Source: Xanthostigma xanthostigma
Taxonomy: Eukaryota > Arthropoda > Insecta > Raphidioptera > Raphidiidae
Direction: 5' to 3'
Assembly: GCA_963575645.1 (NCBI GenBank)
Contig: OY754466.1
Span: 9,030,001 to 9,094,000, forward strand
DNA length: 64,000 nt
Within the stretch, counting starts at the first letter, position 1. Every line of letters starts with the position of its first letter. Made by a program: the position numbers and the translations under genes. Below the pieces are notes generated by a model, which was not told where the DNA came from, searched no databases, and saw only the letters and a list, made by a program, of their open reading frames with translations. Below are positions 9,361 through 53,900 of this stretch, one piece after another.

Positions 9361-10465
9361 GATAAGAAAATAAAAAATACTTAGTACGCTAATGACATTG
9401 TCAGAAATATTGTTGGTACCTTCATAATATATTATCTTTTAGTTAAGACCGTTTTTTTTAATCTCATATTTTACAACAAATGCTTAACAATAATTGGTTA
9501 CGGAAATGAATTCATTAACAACTTAAAAAACCGTTTTCAAACTACAAGATGTTCGAAAATAAACAACAAAACTTAGGTATATGAAACTTTAATATACATT
9601 ATTACCTAATTACTAATACTACAAATTACAAATTAAAAACAAAAAAAATGTGAGCCGTCGCGGGACGCCTGGCAGATGTGAAATATAATTTAATCTACCA
9701 AGAGAGTAGATTTTACATTTACTGGCGCTTCAAACACACCAAATATACGCGTGCTTAATGCATAGATGAATGCACACTTTAATTATAATAGTAAACAACA
9801 CTGTATACCCTGTGGAGTATACACTATAGGTACATAGAGCGTGGCGACACGTCGCCACGCCAGAAATCTGTTTTACGTGCGGCTATAGATGTTTCACATC
9901 AAAAATTACATTCTTAAATATAGTTAGATTTAAAGCTGAAAATCGTTTCAGAAACCTAACGTACTGTATATCTCTACCATTTTACTATTCCAACACCCCG
10001 CAGTGCAGTGGGGAATGGTACTAATTTAGATCAAAATTTACTTTTTAAATTTTTACAATATTTTTTCGTTTTGAGGTACCTCGAATCAAAAAAACATATT
10101 TTTGGAAAAATTCTGTGAGCAAGATATAGGATAAACGAATGAGCGGATTGAAACCAAATTTTTATATGCAAATATGAAGAGCGTTATTAACTTATTATTT
10201 TTTGGGGAAATCTGTACATGCGCAGAAGAGATATATATGCTATAACGTTGTTTGTTTTAATATGATAATGGTATAATTTTCATAACTATTTATTATTCCA
10301 TTTATTTCTATATAAACTTTCGAAACTAAAATAAATCTGTTGTTCTTTTATTCAGTAGATCTGTTAGGTTTGTAGATAATTTTTAGATGACGTGATATTA
10401 TATAGCAAATATCACAATATTAAATACTAGCCGTTACCCGCGTTACTTTTATTTTCTATATGTCA
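9361..10465. other. AT-rich intergenic stretch, no gene seen
   Basis: No coding exon was recognised. The stretch about 10060-10260 resembles dispersed repeat sequence (compare 53450-53760), but its boundaries are unclear. Confidence 0.4.
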
Positions 10466-11887: not shown

Positions 11888-11950
11888 ATTTTATAATTTT
11901 TTGTGGCTATATAATTTATAATTGTAATACACAACTCAGCATGAAAATCT

Positions 11951-12600
11951 GTGAGTGAACAATAAATCACCCCTATTTTCCCACCCTTAGGGTAGGAATT
12001 TTTTTTCCAAATTTATATGAGACCAACCTCGAGGTATACCCTATCCAATAAAAAAATAATTATCAAAATCGGACTACTCTGTAAAAAGTTATGTGTGGTC
12101 ATACATTACAATCAGTGAGTAAACAATCAATCATCCCCTGTTTTCCTACCCTTAGGGTTGGAATTTTTTTACCAAATTTATATGGGACCAACTTCGGGGT
12201 ATACCCTTTCAAACAGAAAAATAATTATCAAAATCGGACTACTCTGTAAAAAGTTATGTGTGGTTATACATTACAATCAGTGAGTGAACAATCAATCATC
12301 CCCTGTTTTCCTACCCTTAGGGTTGGAATTTTTTTACCAAATTTATATGGGACCAACTTCGGGGTATACCCTTTCAAACAGAAAAATAATTATCAAAATC
12401 GGACTACTCTGTAAAAAGTTATGTGTGGTTATACATTACAATCAGTGAGTGAACAATCAATCATCCCCTGTTTTCCTACCCTTAGGGTTGGAATTTTTTT
12501 ACCAAATTTATATGGGACCAACTTCGGGGTATACCCTTTCAAACAAAAAAATATTTATCAAAATCGGACTACTCTGTAAAAAGTTATGCGTGGTCATACA
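11951..12600 (+). repeat. tandem array, four copies of a 165-bp unit
   Basis: Units begin at about 11951, 12115, 12280 and 12445 (GTGAGTGAACAAT or close variants). Each contains TACCCTTAGGGT and GACCAACTTCGGGGTATACC or a variant. The first copy is the most diverged. A poly-A-rich run (12602-12632) follows the last. Confidence 0.88.
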
Positions 12601-12632
12601 TAAAAAAAAAAAAAAAATAAAAAAAAAAAAAA

Positions 12633-37200: not shown

Positions 37201-40200
37201 GGCGCGTTCTCGGAACTGGATACAAAAATTTATTTTTAATTTGATATAACTTTTGAATTATAACGAAAATAAAAAAAAGAAAAATAGTTTTGTTATAAAA
37301 CTTATATACGATCTTTCCATTTATGACAAAAAAAAATTTCATTCAAAAGCCCAATTAGCGTTGGGAAAAAATACTTGGATCAGAGTTAGCCATGACTGTA
37401 TTAATTGTTATTTCTATTGAATTATCATGGTAATCTTGAGGATTTCTATTTTATTTTGATTTATTTTTATTTTACTTGGCTTTTTTAATAACAAAAAGCT
37501 CTTATAAATCATTATTTTAATTTTTTTTGTAAAAAAATAAAACAAACAACTCCATCTGTTTTGAAACATTTCATTCAAAAATTGTCTGACTGGTATGACG
37601 TTTGCGCGTTGGTAAATCAGTTACCCAATGTCTTTAGGTTCAACACGAATAGACGGAGATATTTGATCTCGCACCATATTTAAGTATTTTTGGGAATTTA
37701 ATGTCCCATTAATAAAAAAAGTCCGATTATGTTGTAATCATTTGAATATTTTCTTCGGTAGTATACACATTCATTTTGCAAAAGAATATTATCTGTCAAA
37801 TTGAAAAACAAGATTTCAAGGCTCACTCTGATCCAGTCATTTTTTCCCAATTTTATAGGGTGTCTCAAACCACCGAGAAATAAATGAAATTCTGTAATAA
37901 GTACCTAAAATTTCAGAACGGTCTACTAACTCTGTGAAAAATTTTATAATTACGTAGTTAGCAGGTGCTCTTATGGAAAAATCGCGCATTTATTTTTAAA
38001 TACTGCTAAAGCACCGTAATATTATCGAGAAAAATTCGTAGTTTTTAGAATATGTTAGTCAGATAGATATAGGGTTGCAACGATATATCGGTAAATCGCA
38101 ATTATCGCTATTATGGCATAAAAATATCGCAGAGTAAATGTGACTTAAGGAGGTTGAGCCGTTTTACGAAGATAATGAAAAAAATCTGAAATAAAGGTTT
38201 TTTAATATATTTTTTTGTGACAAAATTTTCTGTAAAAAATCCAAAATCATTAGATTTTAAAAATTAAAAAAAAAAAAACTTTTACATGTAGTCTTATGGA
38301 AAATATGTCAACCTAGCTTGCAAACGGTACATTTTAATTTTTTGCAAATAACCAAATAATGTCAGCAGTTCCGAAAACTAATTATGTAAAGCATCGATGT
38401 CTTACGCAATTTTAATATTTTTTTTTTTAAATTATTAAACCTTAGCACTTTTCGATTATGGACTTTTATTCTTGACTATTTTAACAATTTTAAGTGAATT
38501 TTCAACTTTTTAATGATTTAATTTTAATTTTTATTACTTCTAATTTCTTTTTTTTTAATTATTTACTGCAAAAAATATGTAAAATACAGATATTTACATA
38601 ATTTTTTTTTAACCTAACTTTGTACAAAAAATTCAAAAGTTAGTCCATTAAGTAAAATACTGAAATAATTAATTAATATTTTAAAAAAATATTTATTTAT
38701 GCCTTTATGACAATAATTTATTAGTATCATCGACTTGTAACCTTTTGTAAAAATTTATTATGTAAAAGTTCCCATTTAGAATTCGACTTACTTTTGATTG
38801 GGACTGTAACGCATCAACATCCTTAAGAATTGTTTTTAAAAAAAAGTTCATTCGTGTTCGCACAAGCTGATGTGTGTTAAAAGACTGCTAAGAAGGATCA
38901 TTCGTTGTCGCAAAAAAGGTCTTTAACAAATAATAAAAACACTTGAAAACTCTACAAAATATTTTCTGTCTCGACGATCGTTTCGGACAGTCAGTCCCAT
39001 CTTCAGGAGTACAGACCTATACTGAATTTTTTGAATATGCAACTGTTTAGAAGTTCAGAGCTAGATCAAAACTTGCCAACAAACACAGCTTTTGAGTTTA
39101 TGATTATGCAAAATGCATCTTTACAGAGCTTCCGTGGGACAAGCCAACACCCGATTGTCCAGAGTACAAAAATTTCCGCGCGGAAAAGTTTCCGACTACA
39201 TCGCCGTGGACCAAGCTCGATAACATGACGCTTTCGCTGGTCTGTGGCTTATTGAAAGGGGAACCGGATCGTAGAGCTACCATCGAACACGCAAACAAAC
39301 ACAGGTGGATGAAACACACGTTCAGTGCAAACGGTGAGTAATTGTTCGACTCAGTAATTTTATATTTTTTAAAAAACGGAATGTATTATGTACTGTAGAA
39401 TTTTTAAAAGAAGACCGGTCTTTGGAATGTAGCCCTATGACCTTATTGCAGAAGAGCGCACATGTATTTTTATTAGTAAAAGGTAATGATCCTGGAACCG
39501 CTACTATGCAATAAGGGAGTCCAGTCGACAAATCGTATCACAATTGTGGTATCGCGATAATTGTACTCTTGCCATAGCCGTACGACTACTGTTGGATTTT
39601 TAAAATAAGACCGGTCTATGGAATGTAGCCCTATGACTTTATTGCAGAAGAGCGCACATGTATTTTTTATTAATGAAAGGTAATGATCCTGGAACAGCTT
39701 CTATGCAATAAGGGAGTCCAGTCGACCAATCGTATCACAATTGTGGTATCGCGATAATTATACTCTTGCCATAGCCGTACGATTATACAGCGACACGTGC
39801 TAACAGTACAAAAAAAAATCATACACCAGACAGTACATAGGCGTGCGCTCACGGACTAAGTTTATGGGTGTTGTCTGAATATCATCAAAATGGAAAGTAA
39901 AAAGGGAAAAACAGTTAGAAGTGGCGCTAGGGAGGTCATAGCGAATGTAATTAAAATTTTGCTTTACTATTTATTATGAATGCCAACGGGAAATTTAAAG
40001 CTATACATTGTTTGCATGCCTTGCTATGTGCCGCCTATGAATTTCGATAAATCAGCGACTTCTTGCCCTTTCCCCACCGGTCTTCTTTCGCCGATCGCAC
40101 AGTAGACAAAATCTCGTACTTCTGCGAAAATTAAAGTTTTTTTTTTCACATTTTTAAATCCATATTAATGTTTTACTTCCCACATCTTCTTGGACTGTCA

Positions 40201-43200
40201 GTACACTTTTTTGACCGAATAACTCAATGTGAGTTTAGTACATTTAATTTTGGGTTTGTTTTTGCTATAAAATCTCCAGATTCGTGATCTTTTGTTACTA
40301 CTTATTTTTTGAACAGCTGCTAAACAGTACTAAACAAAATCTAACCAATAAATTCCCAGTTTTTTTCACTAAAAAACAATTTTGCCAACAATTCATCCAT
40401 GTACGAATTGTAAACCAGATAGGTGACTGACGGGGAATGTCTGTCGGGGATGCGGGCTGGGGTGTACCCTAAGCCTACGTTAACTAAACAGAGTTATGAT
40501 AAATAAAAATTTATTTTTGACGTGATAACGTCTTATAAATTGATGAAACACCGGCTGCACGCACGAAAAAGTGTCACGTTCCGCCTGAGCGTGTAAGCGA
40601 GAGCGCGGTATAAGCGATAGAGAGGCACGATCGGCCCAAGCGTCGGCTTGTACGCATTTCTCTCTCTTCTCGCGTGACGTCAGAGAGCTCATCAATGTTT
40701 TTTTATGACGTTATCACGTAAAACTGTCGTCCGTAAACCGACTTTACAGACAACCAATTTTTTTTGCTAGGCTTTTCAAATTTCAGCAGTGAATAAAAAT
40801 AATTTCAAGTTTTTATCGAAGAGTAAAAAATATGTAATTTTCCTGTGGACACTAATTTTTCATTTTTCAGCTTGATCGTGTGTTATTTGTATTAGGTTTT
40901 CGTACAAAAGAGGAATTGGCGCTAGCAGAGCCTTCTGTGTCAGGTACTAAGTGACTCTGAGTAGTTTTTAAATCTCAGAGTAACTGAGTGCCTGACATAG
41001 CGTGCTTCTTTCTGGATCCAAAAGCAGTAATTTATTTGGTTAGTTAAAACAACATATCCTGGATTCGTTTTCCGTACTTGATACGATACGGATTTTTAAT
41101 AATTAGTTGAAAATCTTATCAAGCGGCATTTCGGTGAATTCAAAATTATCTAAACTCAACGTACTAAATACCATGTTAACGCGCTTGCGCTATCAGGCTG
41201 ACATAACCTCAACAATTACTATTATGACAGGCATATTAACATGCAAGGCCATAGGTATTTTCGACTCTTTTTCAGATCCCTGGATTCCACGTTTTTTAGG
41301 CATCCATCTGAAATGTAACAATGAAGGATGAGTGAAAGAAATGCTTCATCTCTCTCACTCAACTTTCATTGTTACATTTCATATCATATGCCACTTTGGC
41401 GTTGATCGCAAGTCAGTACAAGGCTAAATAAGTTTTTTCGTAACTAACAATTACATTTACAAATAATACTGATTCATGAAAGTGTTTGGTAAACTTATAT
41501 TAAACAAGTTTTGAAGAGGAGTTATCGTTGTGGCAAGGAAAGTGGTCAAAAATAGTTGCTGCGGAATGGCCCACTACATCATTAGACGCGCTGGACAGCT
41601 GTAACGCATTAATGTTTTCCATGATTAATTTTTTCTATAAGGTCAAGTAAATTCAGGCATATTCGTGAATTCTAGGTACACTCATTCGATTCAGCATGAT
41701 TTTTTGCATAGGACCAAGTCATTTTCAACCACATATTCTATCCGGTCGATCCTGCACTTATTTTAAAATGAAAATTTAATCGTCGCCCCCCCCGTAAAAA
41801 TTTTCAAAATCGAAGTCTCCCAGAACGGGTCGATATTAATGTTACCCGGTAGATTTTGACACGCTGAATCCAATGAGAACAGGCGCAGCTCTGTATCTTG
41901 TCTAGTTTCAGAGATAATTGAGTTTGAAATTTTCAAACTTTCTAATGCTCATAACTTCGAAACCAGAAGAGATACAGTTCTGCGCTTGTGCTCATTCGAT
42001 TCAGCGCACTTTTTCTATAAGGTCAAGTAAATTCAGCCATATCCGTGACACTTTTATATTTTCCAAAAAATTATAATTTTATAATTTTACATAAATATAA
42101 TTGTTACCTATTGTCTATGGTCTCGAGCTCGACCCCCCCGAAGTGGCCTTGTTAACGTGGTGTTTAGTATCTTTTAGATTGTTTTGAGTCACATAGTTGT
42201 GTCCACGATGAACACAATTATGCCCCGGGTGGACACAGTTGTGTTCTCGGACCGGAATAGTTAGATAGTAGATTTTAGAGATGTGCGTTTTAAAACGTAA
42301 ATAGTTTCAATAACTATGTATTGGCGCAATAACCGAAATACAGTATTCGGTTCTACGATAACTATGTATTGGGCGATTAAATAGGTATACATTGTAGAAC
42401 GTTTAGTTACACTGTGTTGTTTTCTGAGAAGTTTAATATCTATTTTAAACAAACTTATTTTGATTTTGATATTCATAACATAACAAATCACCATAAAGAT
42501 TTTTGCTTACGCAACAATAGATAATATATTATATGCATAATAACTAACAATGTTGACTAGCTAATTGGTACAATGAACGTTATTGTTGGCCCATGGCACG
42601 TGTATTATTTGTGTTCGGCCCACTTGATTCTTGAATAAAATATGAAAATATTTTGATTTCTTTTTTAAATCTACAAAATGCACCTCTTGTACTGGTATTA
42701 AGTAGTTGACAAATACATTTTTTTTTTGTATTTGCATTGTATTCGCAACAATGAGTGTTTCAAAAATCAGTAACTATTTGTTATTACATACACTCGTCCC
42801 CGATGATATCGCTACCAAAACACCAAAACCACTTCTAGACTCGTGTATCGCCAATACATAGTTATTAAAATAAATAGTTTCAAAAACCGTTATCGAGTAC
42901 TGATAACTAGTTACGTTTTGTTATTGGAAAAACGCGTACCGACCCATCTCTAGTAGATATTAGAACCTGGATTACTTCATGTGCTTTAATACGGATTCTT
43001 AGGTAACGAATAACAACTCTGAATATATTTTAACAATTTTTTTTTCCAGCCCGTTTTGAATTGGACATCTGAAGTAGTAGTGACTTTGCTTTGGTAATTT
43101 AGCGGTATGAGTATATTAAATGTCATAAAGCTAGATTACCAAAGCATGGCTGCTATTCAAATCACCATAATTGAAACTACTAATGTATACGGTATTCGAA

Positions 43201-46200
43201 GTTCTATATGCTGCGAGTTTCCGGCTTTATATGTTGACTTGATCATAGTGCTCACTCGTAAAGTTTTCCGATTGGTTTATGACTGCCGCGAAGTGAAAAT
43301 GAAGAGATTCAAAATACCCGAGTCCTACTGTAATTGCTAATTGGAAACGCATTTTTAGTTATTGTTTTTGAATACATCGATTGTTATATTCTTTTTGTTG
43401 TGTCCAATTCGTAGATGCAATTCCGAAATTGGACGGCTTAAAATCGGGTTCCGTTAAACGTTTACGTTCGGGCGACTCCGTAAACGGCAGCGAAGACGAC
43501 GTAGATTGCGGTAGACCGTGCCTGTCTCAGCCGGAACCTCACATTCCTGTCAACAGTGAAGATATGACCGGCATCGAAAATGGCGGAGACGCGGCTGCCC
43601 AAATTTGTTTCTCGCAGCCAGTACAATTGGACGATTTGTTGCTTTGCACCCAGTTCAATTTGACGCAAAATTTAACACAATCTGCTGCTACACAGGTAGC
43701 TACTTGTTTTGTTGCTTTTTTAAAACACACAACTTAATATCGCAGATTAGTTACAAAGTACCTGGGTGACCGAGCTTTGCTCGGAAATTTAAATAAAATA
43801 CTGATATGCTGATATCGCCAAAACTTTGAGAACCGTAGGTTCTCTGTCGCTTCCCTTTGTGGAGCCTACGTCTCCACCTTTATTACAGTCTTACCTCGCG
43901 GGGCTGCGCCCCGCTCGGTTGTAAACGACACTAGTCGAGCCTTCGGCTCTCTGGGGAAGCTTCGCTTCCTTTGTGGAGCCTACGTCTCCACCTTTGTTAC
44001 AGTCTTACCTCACGGGGCTGCGCCCCGCTCGGTTGTAAACAACACTAGTCGAGCCTTTGGCTCTCCATATAAGAACCGTAGGTTCTCTGGGGAAGCTTCG
44101 CTTCCTTTTGTGGAGCAATAAGATAATATTGCTGAAACAGTTTGGCTCCTTTGTGGAGAGGATTGTCGGCCCTTATGGCAATCCGGTACTTGTAAAACTG
44201 ATTCGCCGTCATCTTGATCTATGATATTGCATCTTTCGCTTCAAATTTAGGTTAAAAATTTATTTATTAAAATAATAATTGTTTTTAACTTTCTTTCACT
44301 TGGATAGTAATTAAAGATTAACTGTCATAATATTTTGAAAACAATTGTTTCATTGTATAAAATTCCAAAACCTACTTACAATATTTAAGTATTTTCATAC
44401 GTCAAAAAATTGATTTTTATAATGATAAAATTTGTAAGAAAACGATTTTTTCGAGAGATGAGACCTAGCTAAAACGATTTTTTACCCCCCAAAATCCCTT
44501 TTCAGTAAATTTCATCCAAATTGTTAGGGCCGTTTTCGAGAAAATATTTAGGGACATAGGTACATAAGATACATAGGTACGAGATTAGCTCGTTTAATAA
44601 TATAGGGATAGGGATTTCCTTGATTGGTATTTCACGCCAACTGGTGGTAAAAATGTTCATTTTATGGCAGCATTTATTCAAAATATAATTATATATTATG
44701 AGCAGGCTTTGGATAAAAAAAAATTGCATTTATATGTCAATTAGTGACAGTTTGCTTTTCAGTTACGCGAAAATATAAGTAAATTACAAAGTAAAATACT
44801 AATATTATACAAAAAATTATATTATAAAGAAGAAATTACTTATACACCTTTTTTTTTTATTAATTGTTTTTTGGCCTGACTCTTGTCTTTGGCCAGTAGC
44901 CAATCTTCTATCCTTATACATTATACACTTTAGACACTGTTGTTTGTAGTGCAACTTTGCGATTATGACAACTTGCCCATTTAAATAACCTTCGACAACA
45001 TCATATACATGACCAGAATTATATAATTTTTCGCCTTTTGAGCTATTCTGTCTAGGGATGTGAAAAAATAATCGATTTTTATTTTGATCGATTATTTTTT
45101 TCTTATAATCGATTTCTTGTAATCGATTTTATTTATGACAATAATCGATTTTTAATTAATCGATTATAAAAATTACACATTTTAATCGATTTTTGTAAAT
45201 GGTGCCATCTGTGCGACAGACGATTCTTTTTAGTTTTTTGATTCTTTAAATTCAAAGTTTAAAAAAGCATGATTTGTTTTGTATTTTAGTTTTCATACCA
45301 AAAACTTGTCGTTTTACTTTCTTATCGTTTGGTTTTATTTTTATTGTAAATTACAATATTTTGTAATAAAATGTCAAGTTGTAGTAGAAATTGTTTCAAC
45401 AATTCTAATCTGTGTCAATAACTATAAGGTTGTCATTTTGCTTATTATTATTATATTTATCATTTTAAATGATTTTCATTCTTATAAATTGTTAATATTT
45501 TTCTCTTAGTTTCATTATTATATAGAAAAAATCGATTATTCTACAAAAATCGATTATTTCTTTTAAAATCGATTTTTTTAAAATCGATTTATATTCAAAC
45601 TAAAAAAATCGATTTTTTTCATTCAATGTCACATCCCTAATTCTGTCCATGTATACGAGTATTAGTTACAGGTTGAAATGCGTACTTCTTATTTTTTCCA
45701 TTTTTTCAAATATTTTTCATTGTTTACTATTAAAAAATGATCTCATTTACTTCATTAATTAGATACTAGAGAGCGCCAACTTCGTCAGTAGTGCTGCCTC
45801 TATGTTTCACGCACGGTCTCCATAGTGCTCTAGTGTAAAAATTAAATAAAAGTGTAGCATTTTTGACACTATTGCGACCAGTTGTTCCGAATAATTAGCA
45901 GCGGAACGTAATGTAGTGTTAAACAAATTAGGCTTTTGGTAACGTACACTTTTCAACGTAAATTTCACTGAGTTATCTACACTACACTAATATACCAAAT
46001 TTATTTATTTTATACACCTTTTATAAAAATAGGGGACATTGAGTGAATGACGGTAGATTAATAAAAAAAAACTTAAAACAAACGTACATTTCAACACCAA
46101 AAAAAAAAATGTATACTAGAAAACAATAGAAGATCTAATATGTGTTAATATGATGAGATTGGATTCCCCTGCAATTGTTTTATAATTGATTAATCAGTGT

Positions 46201-52917: not shown

Positions 52918-53900
52918 TTTGACGTGATAACGTCTTATAAATTGATGAATCACCAATCTTATAAATTGATAAAACACCGACTGCATGCACGAAACAGTGT
53001 AACGTAACGTTCGTAACGCGTAACGTTCCGCCTGACCCTGTGCGTGCTTTTTGCTAATTTCTCGCTCAATTTAAATCAGATCGGTTTGAAACCAGTCTTA
53101 AACGAAAGAGGAGAACATTTTACATAGATTTCGTATAACAGAATTTGCCTAAACAGTTTTTTTTATACAAATTTATATAGAAAAATAGCTGTATAAATGC
53201 ATTGTGTAATGCATGGCGCGCGCGCGACGCGGTCGGTCGTCTTTGTTTGCCGTACATGGAAATTAGAAAATAACGTATGTCTTGTCTTAACATGAAAACG
53301 GCTGCATTTCTAATGTTTAATTCAATTTTTTGACATTAGTATTTTGTGAAATGCAAAGCCTTCTAAGTTAACTATTGGAATAACTAATTATTATTAGAAC
53401 ATAATACTTTGACAGTTGCAAACGTCACTTTTGACATTTCTTATCATTCCGACACCAAGGATAAGCGGATTGAAACCAAATTTTGGGAGGATGTTTGATA
53501 TGCAAATATGAAGTGGCCTATTGTTTTTGGGGAACATCGGCGCATGCGTAAAAGAATATATCTCTTATAATGATGTTTTATATAATAATAATATAGTTTT
53601 TAAAACGGTTTTTACTCTATCTATTTTTACTAGAAATTTTTGTAAATTTTTTGGGGAAAATCGGCGCATGCGCAAAAGAGATACATGCCATAGTTGTTTT
53701 TTATATAATAATAGTGTACTTTTTATAGTGTTTTATTATTCTACTTAATAAAATTTACCTAAATTTGAAGCGAAAGATGCAATATCATAGATTCGAATTA
53801 TTATAATTATTATATAAATTTAGGTTATGTATTACGGAATACGTTATCACGTAAAACTATCGTCCGTAAACCGACTTTACAGACAACCAATTTTTTTTTC
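52918..53900 (-). repeat. ACGTGATAACGT repeat family, long copy
   Basis: Begins GACGTGATAACGTC and ends ACGTTATCACGT plus the inverse of GGTTGTCTGTAAAGTCGG, about 980 bp. Its interior matches 31470-31990 in reverse, with extra sequence at 53460-53830. Confidence 0.65.

Follow-up and report, generated by a model that had tools for sequence, protein, structure and literature searches.

The GC-rich hairpins in an intron of Chk1 are not specific to that intron; the array they form is part of a transposon dispersed over the genome. In the best explanation, to which we assign a probability of about 0.72, this transposon is a Helitron-like non-autonomous element whose array would serve as a set of tandem internal 3' terminators. 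The copy studied lies in the window, i.e., the 64,000-nt stretch of DNA that was analyzed (C3:9030001-9094000), within a 623-Mb genome of 28 contigs, and comprises the following features:

43758..44608, minus strand: non-autonomous Helitron-like element of 851 nt, delimited by the same ends in fetched copies and by empty sites
44608 and 43758-43761, minus-strand reading: element ends, 5' TC at 44608 and 3' GTAC at 43758-43761, with host A and T at 44609 and 43757
43770..43784, minus strand: terminal palindrome CCGAGC-aaa-GCTCGG, 12 nt from the GTAC end
44420..44608, minus strand: 5' end region, common to array-less subfamilies and to the Rep-helicase relative L116
44045..44218, minus strand: open frame running into the array, with a stretch NPLHKG.KLFQQY that tentatively resembles a Rep-domain motif of L116
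43828..44105, minus strand: hairpin array of two units and a partial one, with one B module missing in the window copy
Array modules, minus strand: A GGAAGCgaaGCTTCC, B AGAACCtacGGTTCT, C GAGCCgaaGGCTC, D CGGGGCgcaGCCCCG, E GTGGAGacgtaggCTCCAC
43931..43934, minus strand: CTAG after hairpin C (43937-43949), an apparent internal 3' terminus of the canonical Helitron type; copies end at the corresponding CTAG
44045..44048, minus strand: CTAG after the other hairpin C (44051-44063), an apparent second internal terminus, CTAG being present in both units

The element, its insertion and its Rep-helicase relative

Two exons of the host gene have Chk1 as their best match among PDB sequences (E 4.4e-10 and 1.1e-11), in agreement with the original prediction, while Pfam recognized the gene weakly (kinase, 16 bits, under the cut-off). 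The distance of 135 bp between exon and array was also correctly predicted, provided that the splice donor is the GTAGCT at 43696. The Chk1 introns further contain plus-strand Rfam matches to mir-306 and mir-9/mir-79 (40929-41006 and 43079-43154 of the window), both above the gathering scores; the mir-306 match would point to an insect as the source of the DNA.

A genome search with positions 43757-44160 gave 1247 first-look candidates, 40 of which were scored and yielded 41 matches; 35 of these, the window copy included, reach within two bases of both query ends, and 22 span 427 nt, i.e., 23 more than the window copy. Exact matches to the 28-nt 3' end number 627 across the 623-Mb genome, against 0 for the reversed pattern, used as a control. 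Twenty copies were fetched with their flanks, and the similarity among them begins and ends at approximately 43757 and 44609. The window copy departs from the family majority at 5 of 848 sites. End bases were tallied in 19 rows (the window copy and 18 others), excluding L024, in which foreign sequence precedes the 3' part, and L028, a duplicate of L027. The minus-strand 5' TC is present in all 19 rows, the 3' GTAC in 18 (GTGC in the remaining one), and the flanking A before and the flanking T after the element in 18 each. Elsewhere in the window, a 62-nt stretch on the minus strand (53733-53792) is 90% like 44217-44278 and represents DNA related to the interior of the element at a distance of 9.5 kb, and tandem repeats are found at 11946-12601 (165 bp x 4) and 39391-39782 (197 bp x 2).

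Membership of the array in a transposon family had been named in the original prediction as grounds for giving up its reading, and the genome-wide search came out in that direction, with the same DNA dispersed. One of its two suggestions, a mobile palindromic element of a kind better known from organelles and microbes, was right in placing the array in a mobile element, but this element is eukaryotic and Helitron-like. A microbial or viral origin was rejected, with no match to pieces of the element in exact-pattern scans of viral and prokaryote contigs, exact patterns being a weak test, or to the element in a distant blastn search of phages.

The mode of insertion is visible in several loci. 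For L009 and L021, the joined flanks align across the A/T junction to related repeats, i.e., to empty sites, with no gap, and those of L025 do so with a gap of 3 bases that lies one base beyond the junction. The joined flanks of L116 align across AA/TT to positions 44267-44510 of the window element, with a single-base gap located five bases ahead of the junction, and L116 is thus inserted into another copy of this family. For L013 the match extended over 35 bases only, and for L016 and L024 no row spanned the junction. In L071, the end of one element directly meets the start of another (GTAC followed by TCCC); such a head-to-tail junction may bear indirectly on rolling-circle transposition, and an insertion between A and T before another copy would also explain it. 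Besides, in L013 and L116 incomplete 5' portions of the family are found directly beside full elements, and positions 10220-10307, 53558-53626 and 53670-53746 of the window resemble the insertion site of L009, which belongs to another repeat family also seen at other loci.

The short TAGGTACA repeats near 44540-44608 could be taken as the tail of a plus-strand retroelement or SINE, with some likeness to insect RTE tails. On the other hand, the target-site duplication that marks non-LTR elements and SINEs was not seen in any of the 21 rows compared (in one of them, L024, our script paired the element with the wrong 3' end), empty sites are found at A/T, and the long relative of the element encodes a Rep-helicase and not a reverse transcriptase, so that the probability of a retroelement is practically negligible.

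This relative is represented by L116 and L118 (8920 bp, TCCC to GTAC). L116 shares family positions 26-297 (96.4%), 340-385 (95.7%) and 825-879 (98.2%) with the element, as well as the exact terminal 18 nt, and has an intact frame of 1833 aa with matches to Helitron_like_N (1.8e-56), PIF1 (6.1e-53), Pif1_2B and STPR. The frame contains the HUH motif VEFQKRGLPHMH (RGLPHMH), the two tyrosines in YLYKY and the Walker A motif GPGGTGKT, so that L116/L118 provide an autonomous, same-ended Rep-helicase relative. The array is absent from L116, in which our script found the terminal palindrome and two other hairpins, so that this relative gives no indication of the source of the array. Across the genome there are 89 Helitron_like_N matches, and 0 of 14 control genomes have any. 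Two further candidates for the partner were rejected: L117 (2241-aa frame, RGSPHAH) has no ends in common with the element, and 18 end pieces from 9 Rep-helicase copies, whose frames measure 1498-1620 aa, matched the element over 23 nt at most, although some of these pieces may stop short of the true element end. A second Helitron group looks young, with many equal-score Rep-helicase matches in 1555-aa frames (e.g., C16:25398, 49277, 74286; C1:50134221).

The likeness of NPLHKG.KLFQQY, in the frame that runs into the array, to the Rep motif of L116 was equaled in score by 3 of 2000 shuffles. A Pfam search of this frame gave no match. We tentatively consider that the frame before the array may be a Rep remnant.

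The hairpin array and the question of a structured RNA

Within 43828-44105 we found ten perfect inverted repeats (17, 19, 17, 13, 15, 19, 15, 13, 15 and 15 nt), in line with the approximately ten of 13-19 nt that had been predicted. The predicted interval, 43830..44106, does hold the hairpins, but the whole element extends over 43758-44608 and has a further hairpin at 43770-43784. GC-rich hairpins with a stem of at least 5 and a loop of 3-5 number eight in 43830-44106, against a mean of 0.47 and a maximum of 3 in 1000 dinucleotide shuffles of this interval. A period of 114 was measured, as proposed; it covers only 1.9 copies and thus represents two units rather than a long array. Besides, this 114-bp period is peculiar to the window copy, which lacks a 22-nt hairpin module, and the unit of the family majority is approximately 136-137 bp. 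Differences between units in a loop and at a stem edge were recovered (family D1). The UUCG/CUUCG-type loops were not, as the actual loops are of 3 nt (TTC, TTT, TGC, GTA) or 7 nt (CCTACGT) and, because the palindromes are of odd length, a cUUCGg tetraloop is out of register for the CTTCGG letters.

The presence of the array varies between copies. Of 40 sampled copies in which the 3' end is exact (38 located on C1 and 2 on C2, chosen from the first 100 of the 627 places), 25 have the terminal palindrome only, eight have one unit, two have two units and five are partial, in a tally that is blind to modules with more than three substitutions. With 25 of the 40 sampled 3' ends lacking it, the array is optional. 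Other subfamilies are longer or shorter (ca. 0.73, 0.89, 1.5 and 1.8 kb), and an open frame of 110 codons is absent from seven of the nine stretches fetched to examine them.

The original prediction had offered structured RNA as one of its two readings of the array, and a structured intronic RNA, or an RNA-processing signal for Chk1 or its microRNAs, is also one of the alternatives considered here. The RNA fold is better than that of shuffled sequences on both the strand of the gene (z -5.25) and the other strand (z -7.30), and the mir-306 and mir-9/79 matches lie in the same gene. A good RNA fold would, however, be expected of any set of palindromes, an Rfam search of the array gave no match, the same DNA occurs genome-wide, and the array is missing from 25 of the 40 sampled elements with this 3' end. 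In inserted copies, change amounts to 40/2947 (1.36%) in stems, 13/909 (1.43%) in loops, 51/2973 (1.72%) in linkers and 99/9555 in the rest of the element, i.e., stems are no better kept than loops. The covariance check that had been proposed revealed 26 one-sided breaks, 16 wobbles and 0 two-sided (compensatory) changes in 319 hairpin instances from 74 sources, a set that excludes instances with more than five substitutions and counts one array copy twice (L045 = L070); as the copies are so alike, differing by a few per cent, this result has low power against structure. Since stems, loops and linkers change alike and two-sided change is absent, the inserted copies are not under visible structural selection, which says little about active source copies. 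Overall, we regard such an RNA role for Chk1 or its microRNAs as highly improbable.

The computed DNA fold has a slightly lower energy on the transposon strand (-73.8 kcal/mol) than on the other strand (-69.8 kcal/mol), with z scores of -6.88 and -6.46. Modules A, C and D, when read on the transposon strand, carry the loops GAA, GAA and GCA closed by C-G, and A contains GCGAAGC. These GNA loops and the slight predicted advantage of the transposon strand would fit a role as single-stranded DNA, without proving it.

Copies that end at an internal CTAG

On the transposon strand, module C has the sequence GAGCCgaaGGCTC-GACTAG, with a T after it. Four of the 41 genome matches lack the 3' end of the element, and both of those examined, L119 and L120, stop exactly at the CTAG after module C. 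Beyond its CTAG, L119 is joined to a further family copy from which the first bases are missing, and the flank upstream of L119 is unlike the remnant of a simple insertion. The pattern CTAGT followed by a non-G base occurs at 38 places in the genome, of which 20 were read: the array continues with small changes in 16, and unrelated DNA follows at once in four (L123, L124, L125, L142). L143 is an element of 586 nt that begins with TCCC after a flanking A and ends with CTAG before T, and L144 is built likewise with 711 nt. L146 ends at CTAG and has a diverged 5' end, and L145, which matches the array over only its last ca. 86 nt and otherwise consists of different AT-rich DNA, ends at CTAG as well. 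The pattern CTAG followed by a non-T base was found at two places: L148, where the array continues, and L147, which runs from TCCC after A to CTAG and is followed by A.

Seven copies (L119, L120, L143-L146, L147) therefore end exactly at the module-C CTAG; the next base is T in six and A in one. As L143-L146 were picked with a pattern that already demands the T, the T after them has no value as a test; the patterns fix the following base, and the fair comparison is thus at least four ends before T, a count based on the 20 of 38 CTAGT places read with a pattern that took CTAG and T, then non-G, versus one before another base. Two further ends before T (L119 and L120) came without a base-fixing pattern. 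No other array-internal end was seen in the fetched loci scanned, of which L048 is truncated by the limit of the fetched stretch. These loci are a biased set and not a control, since some of the elements have no array and four of the loci had been selected for their CTAG.

These ends bear on a further possibility, namely that the element is Helitron-like and the array captured palindromic DNA with no link to termination, the CTAG ends having arisen by chance truncation or later recombination. The dispensability of the array (25 of 40 copies are without it), its lack of conserved structure, the irregular junction of L119 and the A after L147 would agree with this. On the other hand, seven copies in different flanks end at the identical base after a canonical CTAG, this end recurs in L145 on an unrelated body, and the fetched loci, biased as they are, show no other array-internal end. 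We consider captured DNA unlikely, although it deserves to be kept in mind.

We favor array termination, in which the window copy would be a structurally atypical non-autonomous Helitron inserted between A and T in the Chk1 intron, antisense to the gene. The Rep-helicase relative, with its same ends and intact frame, may mobilize it in trans. The array would be a block carried within some subfamilies, each full unit of which holds an apparent Helitron 3' terminus, i.e., small palindromes and then CTAG. Replication would mostly read through the internal CTAG stops to the family palindrome and GTAC; an occasional stop at an internal CTAG would produce shorter elements, with ends like those of the copies described above. 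More speculatively, and in our opinion rather less probably true than false, the array may be a chain of working terminators whose minihairpins have GNA loops on the transferred strand, giving a leaky, graded choice of 3' end, while GTAC would have drifted and still be cut by the same Rep-helicase. If so, copies would terminate at either of the two CTAG sites or run on to GTAC, and the family would shed shorter elements and could gain new sequence.

Comparison with known Helitrons

For an intron to carry a non-autonomous Helitron is nothing unusual. Two features are less common: the GTAC terminus of a family this abundant, because CTRR counts as defining, and the internal CTAG ends where copies stop. 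Finders based on CTRR would miss such an abundant family, and palindrome arrays in introns can be parts of transposons and not RNA genes. Our literature search, with thin coverage of subscription journals, found no account of hairpin arrays inside Helitrons.

In PMC4686876, GCGAAGC is described as an extraordinarily stable DNA minihairpin. The array resembles these minihairpins, which are synthetic oligonucleotides, in the sequence of its GNA loops and in the GCGAAGC of module A.

Helentrons and HINE/DINE-1 (PMC4067079) are alike in including non-autonomous rolling-circle elements and in having a 3' stem-loop and central repeats. Their insertion is between T and T, they possess subterminal inverted repeats and they carry RGSPH, the S being typical of Helentrons and the L of RGLPH of Helitrons; our element is inserted between A and T, and its relative L116 has RGLPHMH. 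Lepidopteran and other insect non-autonomous Helitrons (Hel-2 and silkworm families; PMC4344730, PMC3789558, PMC6544945), compared by description only, are likewise short, abundant and AT-rich, with a TC start and a 3' hairpin as in ours. They are defined by CTRR, which ours is without, and families without CTRR were set aside as atypical in the silkworm work (PMC3789558). Chimeric silkworm Helitrons with swapped 3' parts are also described in these papers.

Canonical animal Helitrons, including the reconstructed bat element Helraiser (PMC4067079 and PMC4778049), also provide a close comparison. They have in common with our element the 5' TC, the A/T target without duplication, an RGLPH Rep-helicase relative, a head-to-tail junction and a hairpin as presumed terminator. 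The palindrome of Helraiser has 19 nt and lies 11 nt from the end; ours, of 15 nt and at 12 nt, is one base under the usual 16-20 nt and compares with a usual distance of ca. 11 nt. Unlike canonical Helitrons, the window copy ends in GTAC and not in CTRR/CTAG, for which reason we file the element as atypical and Helitron-like; CTAG ends the seven shorter copies instead. The element also stacks internal palindromes with CTAG ends, and this CTAG lies two bases past hairpin C, compared with the usual Helitron spacing of ca. 11. In PMC4778049, the 3' hairpin of a reconstructed Helitron is described as a terminator with occasional bypass. The choice of 3' end, hence the capture of host DNA by read-through, has been tested in a bat Helitron reconstructed for the purpose of such work. 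If array termination is true, a family with two internal CTAG stops and a GTAC end, and with copies for each of these ends, would offer a natural series for measuring the use of such terminators.
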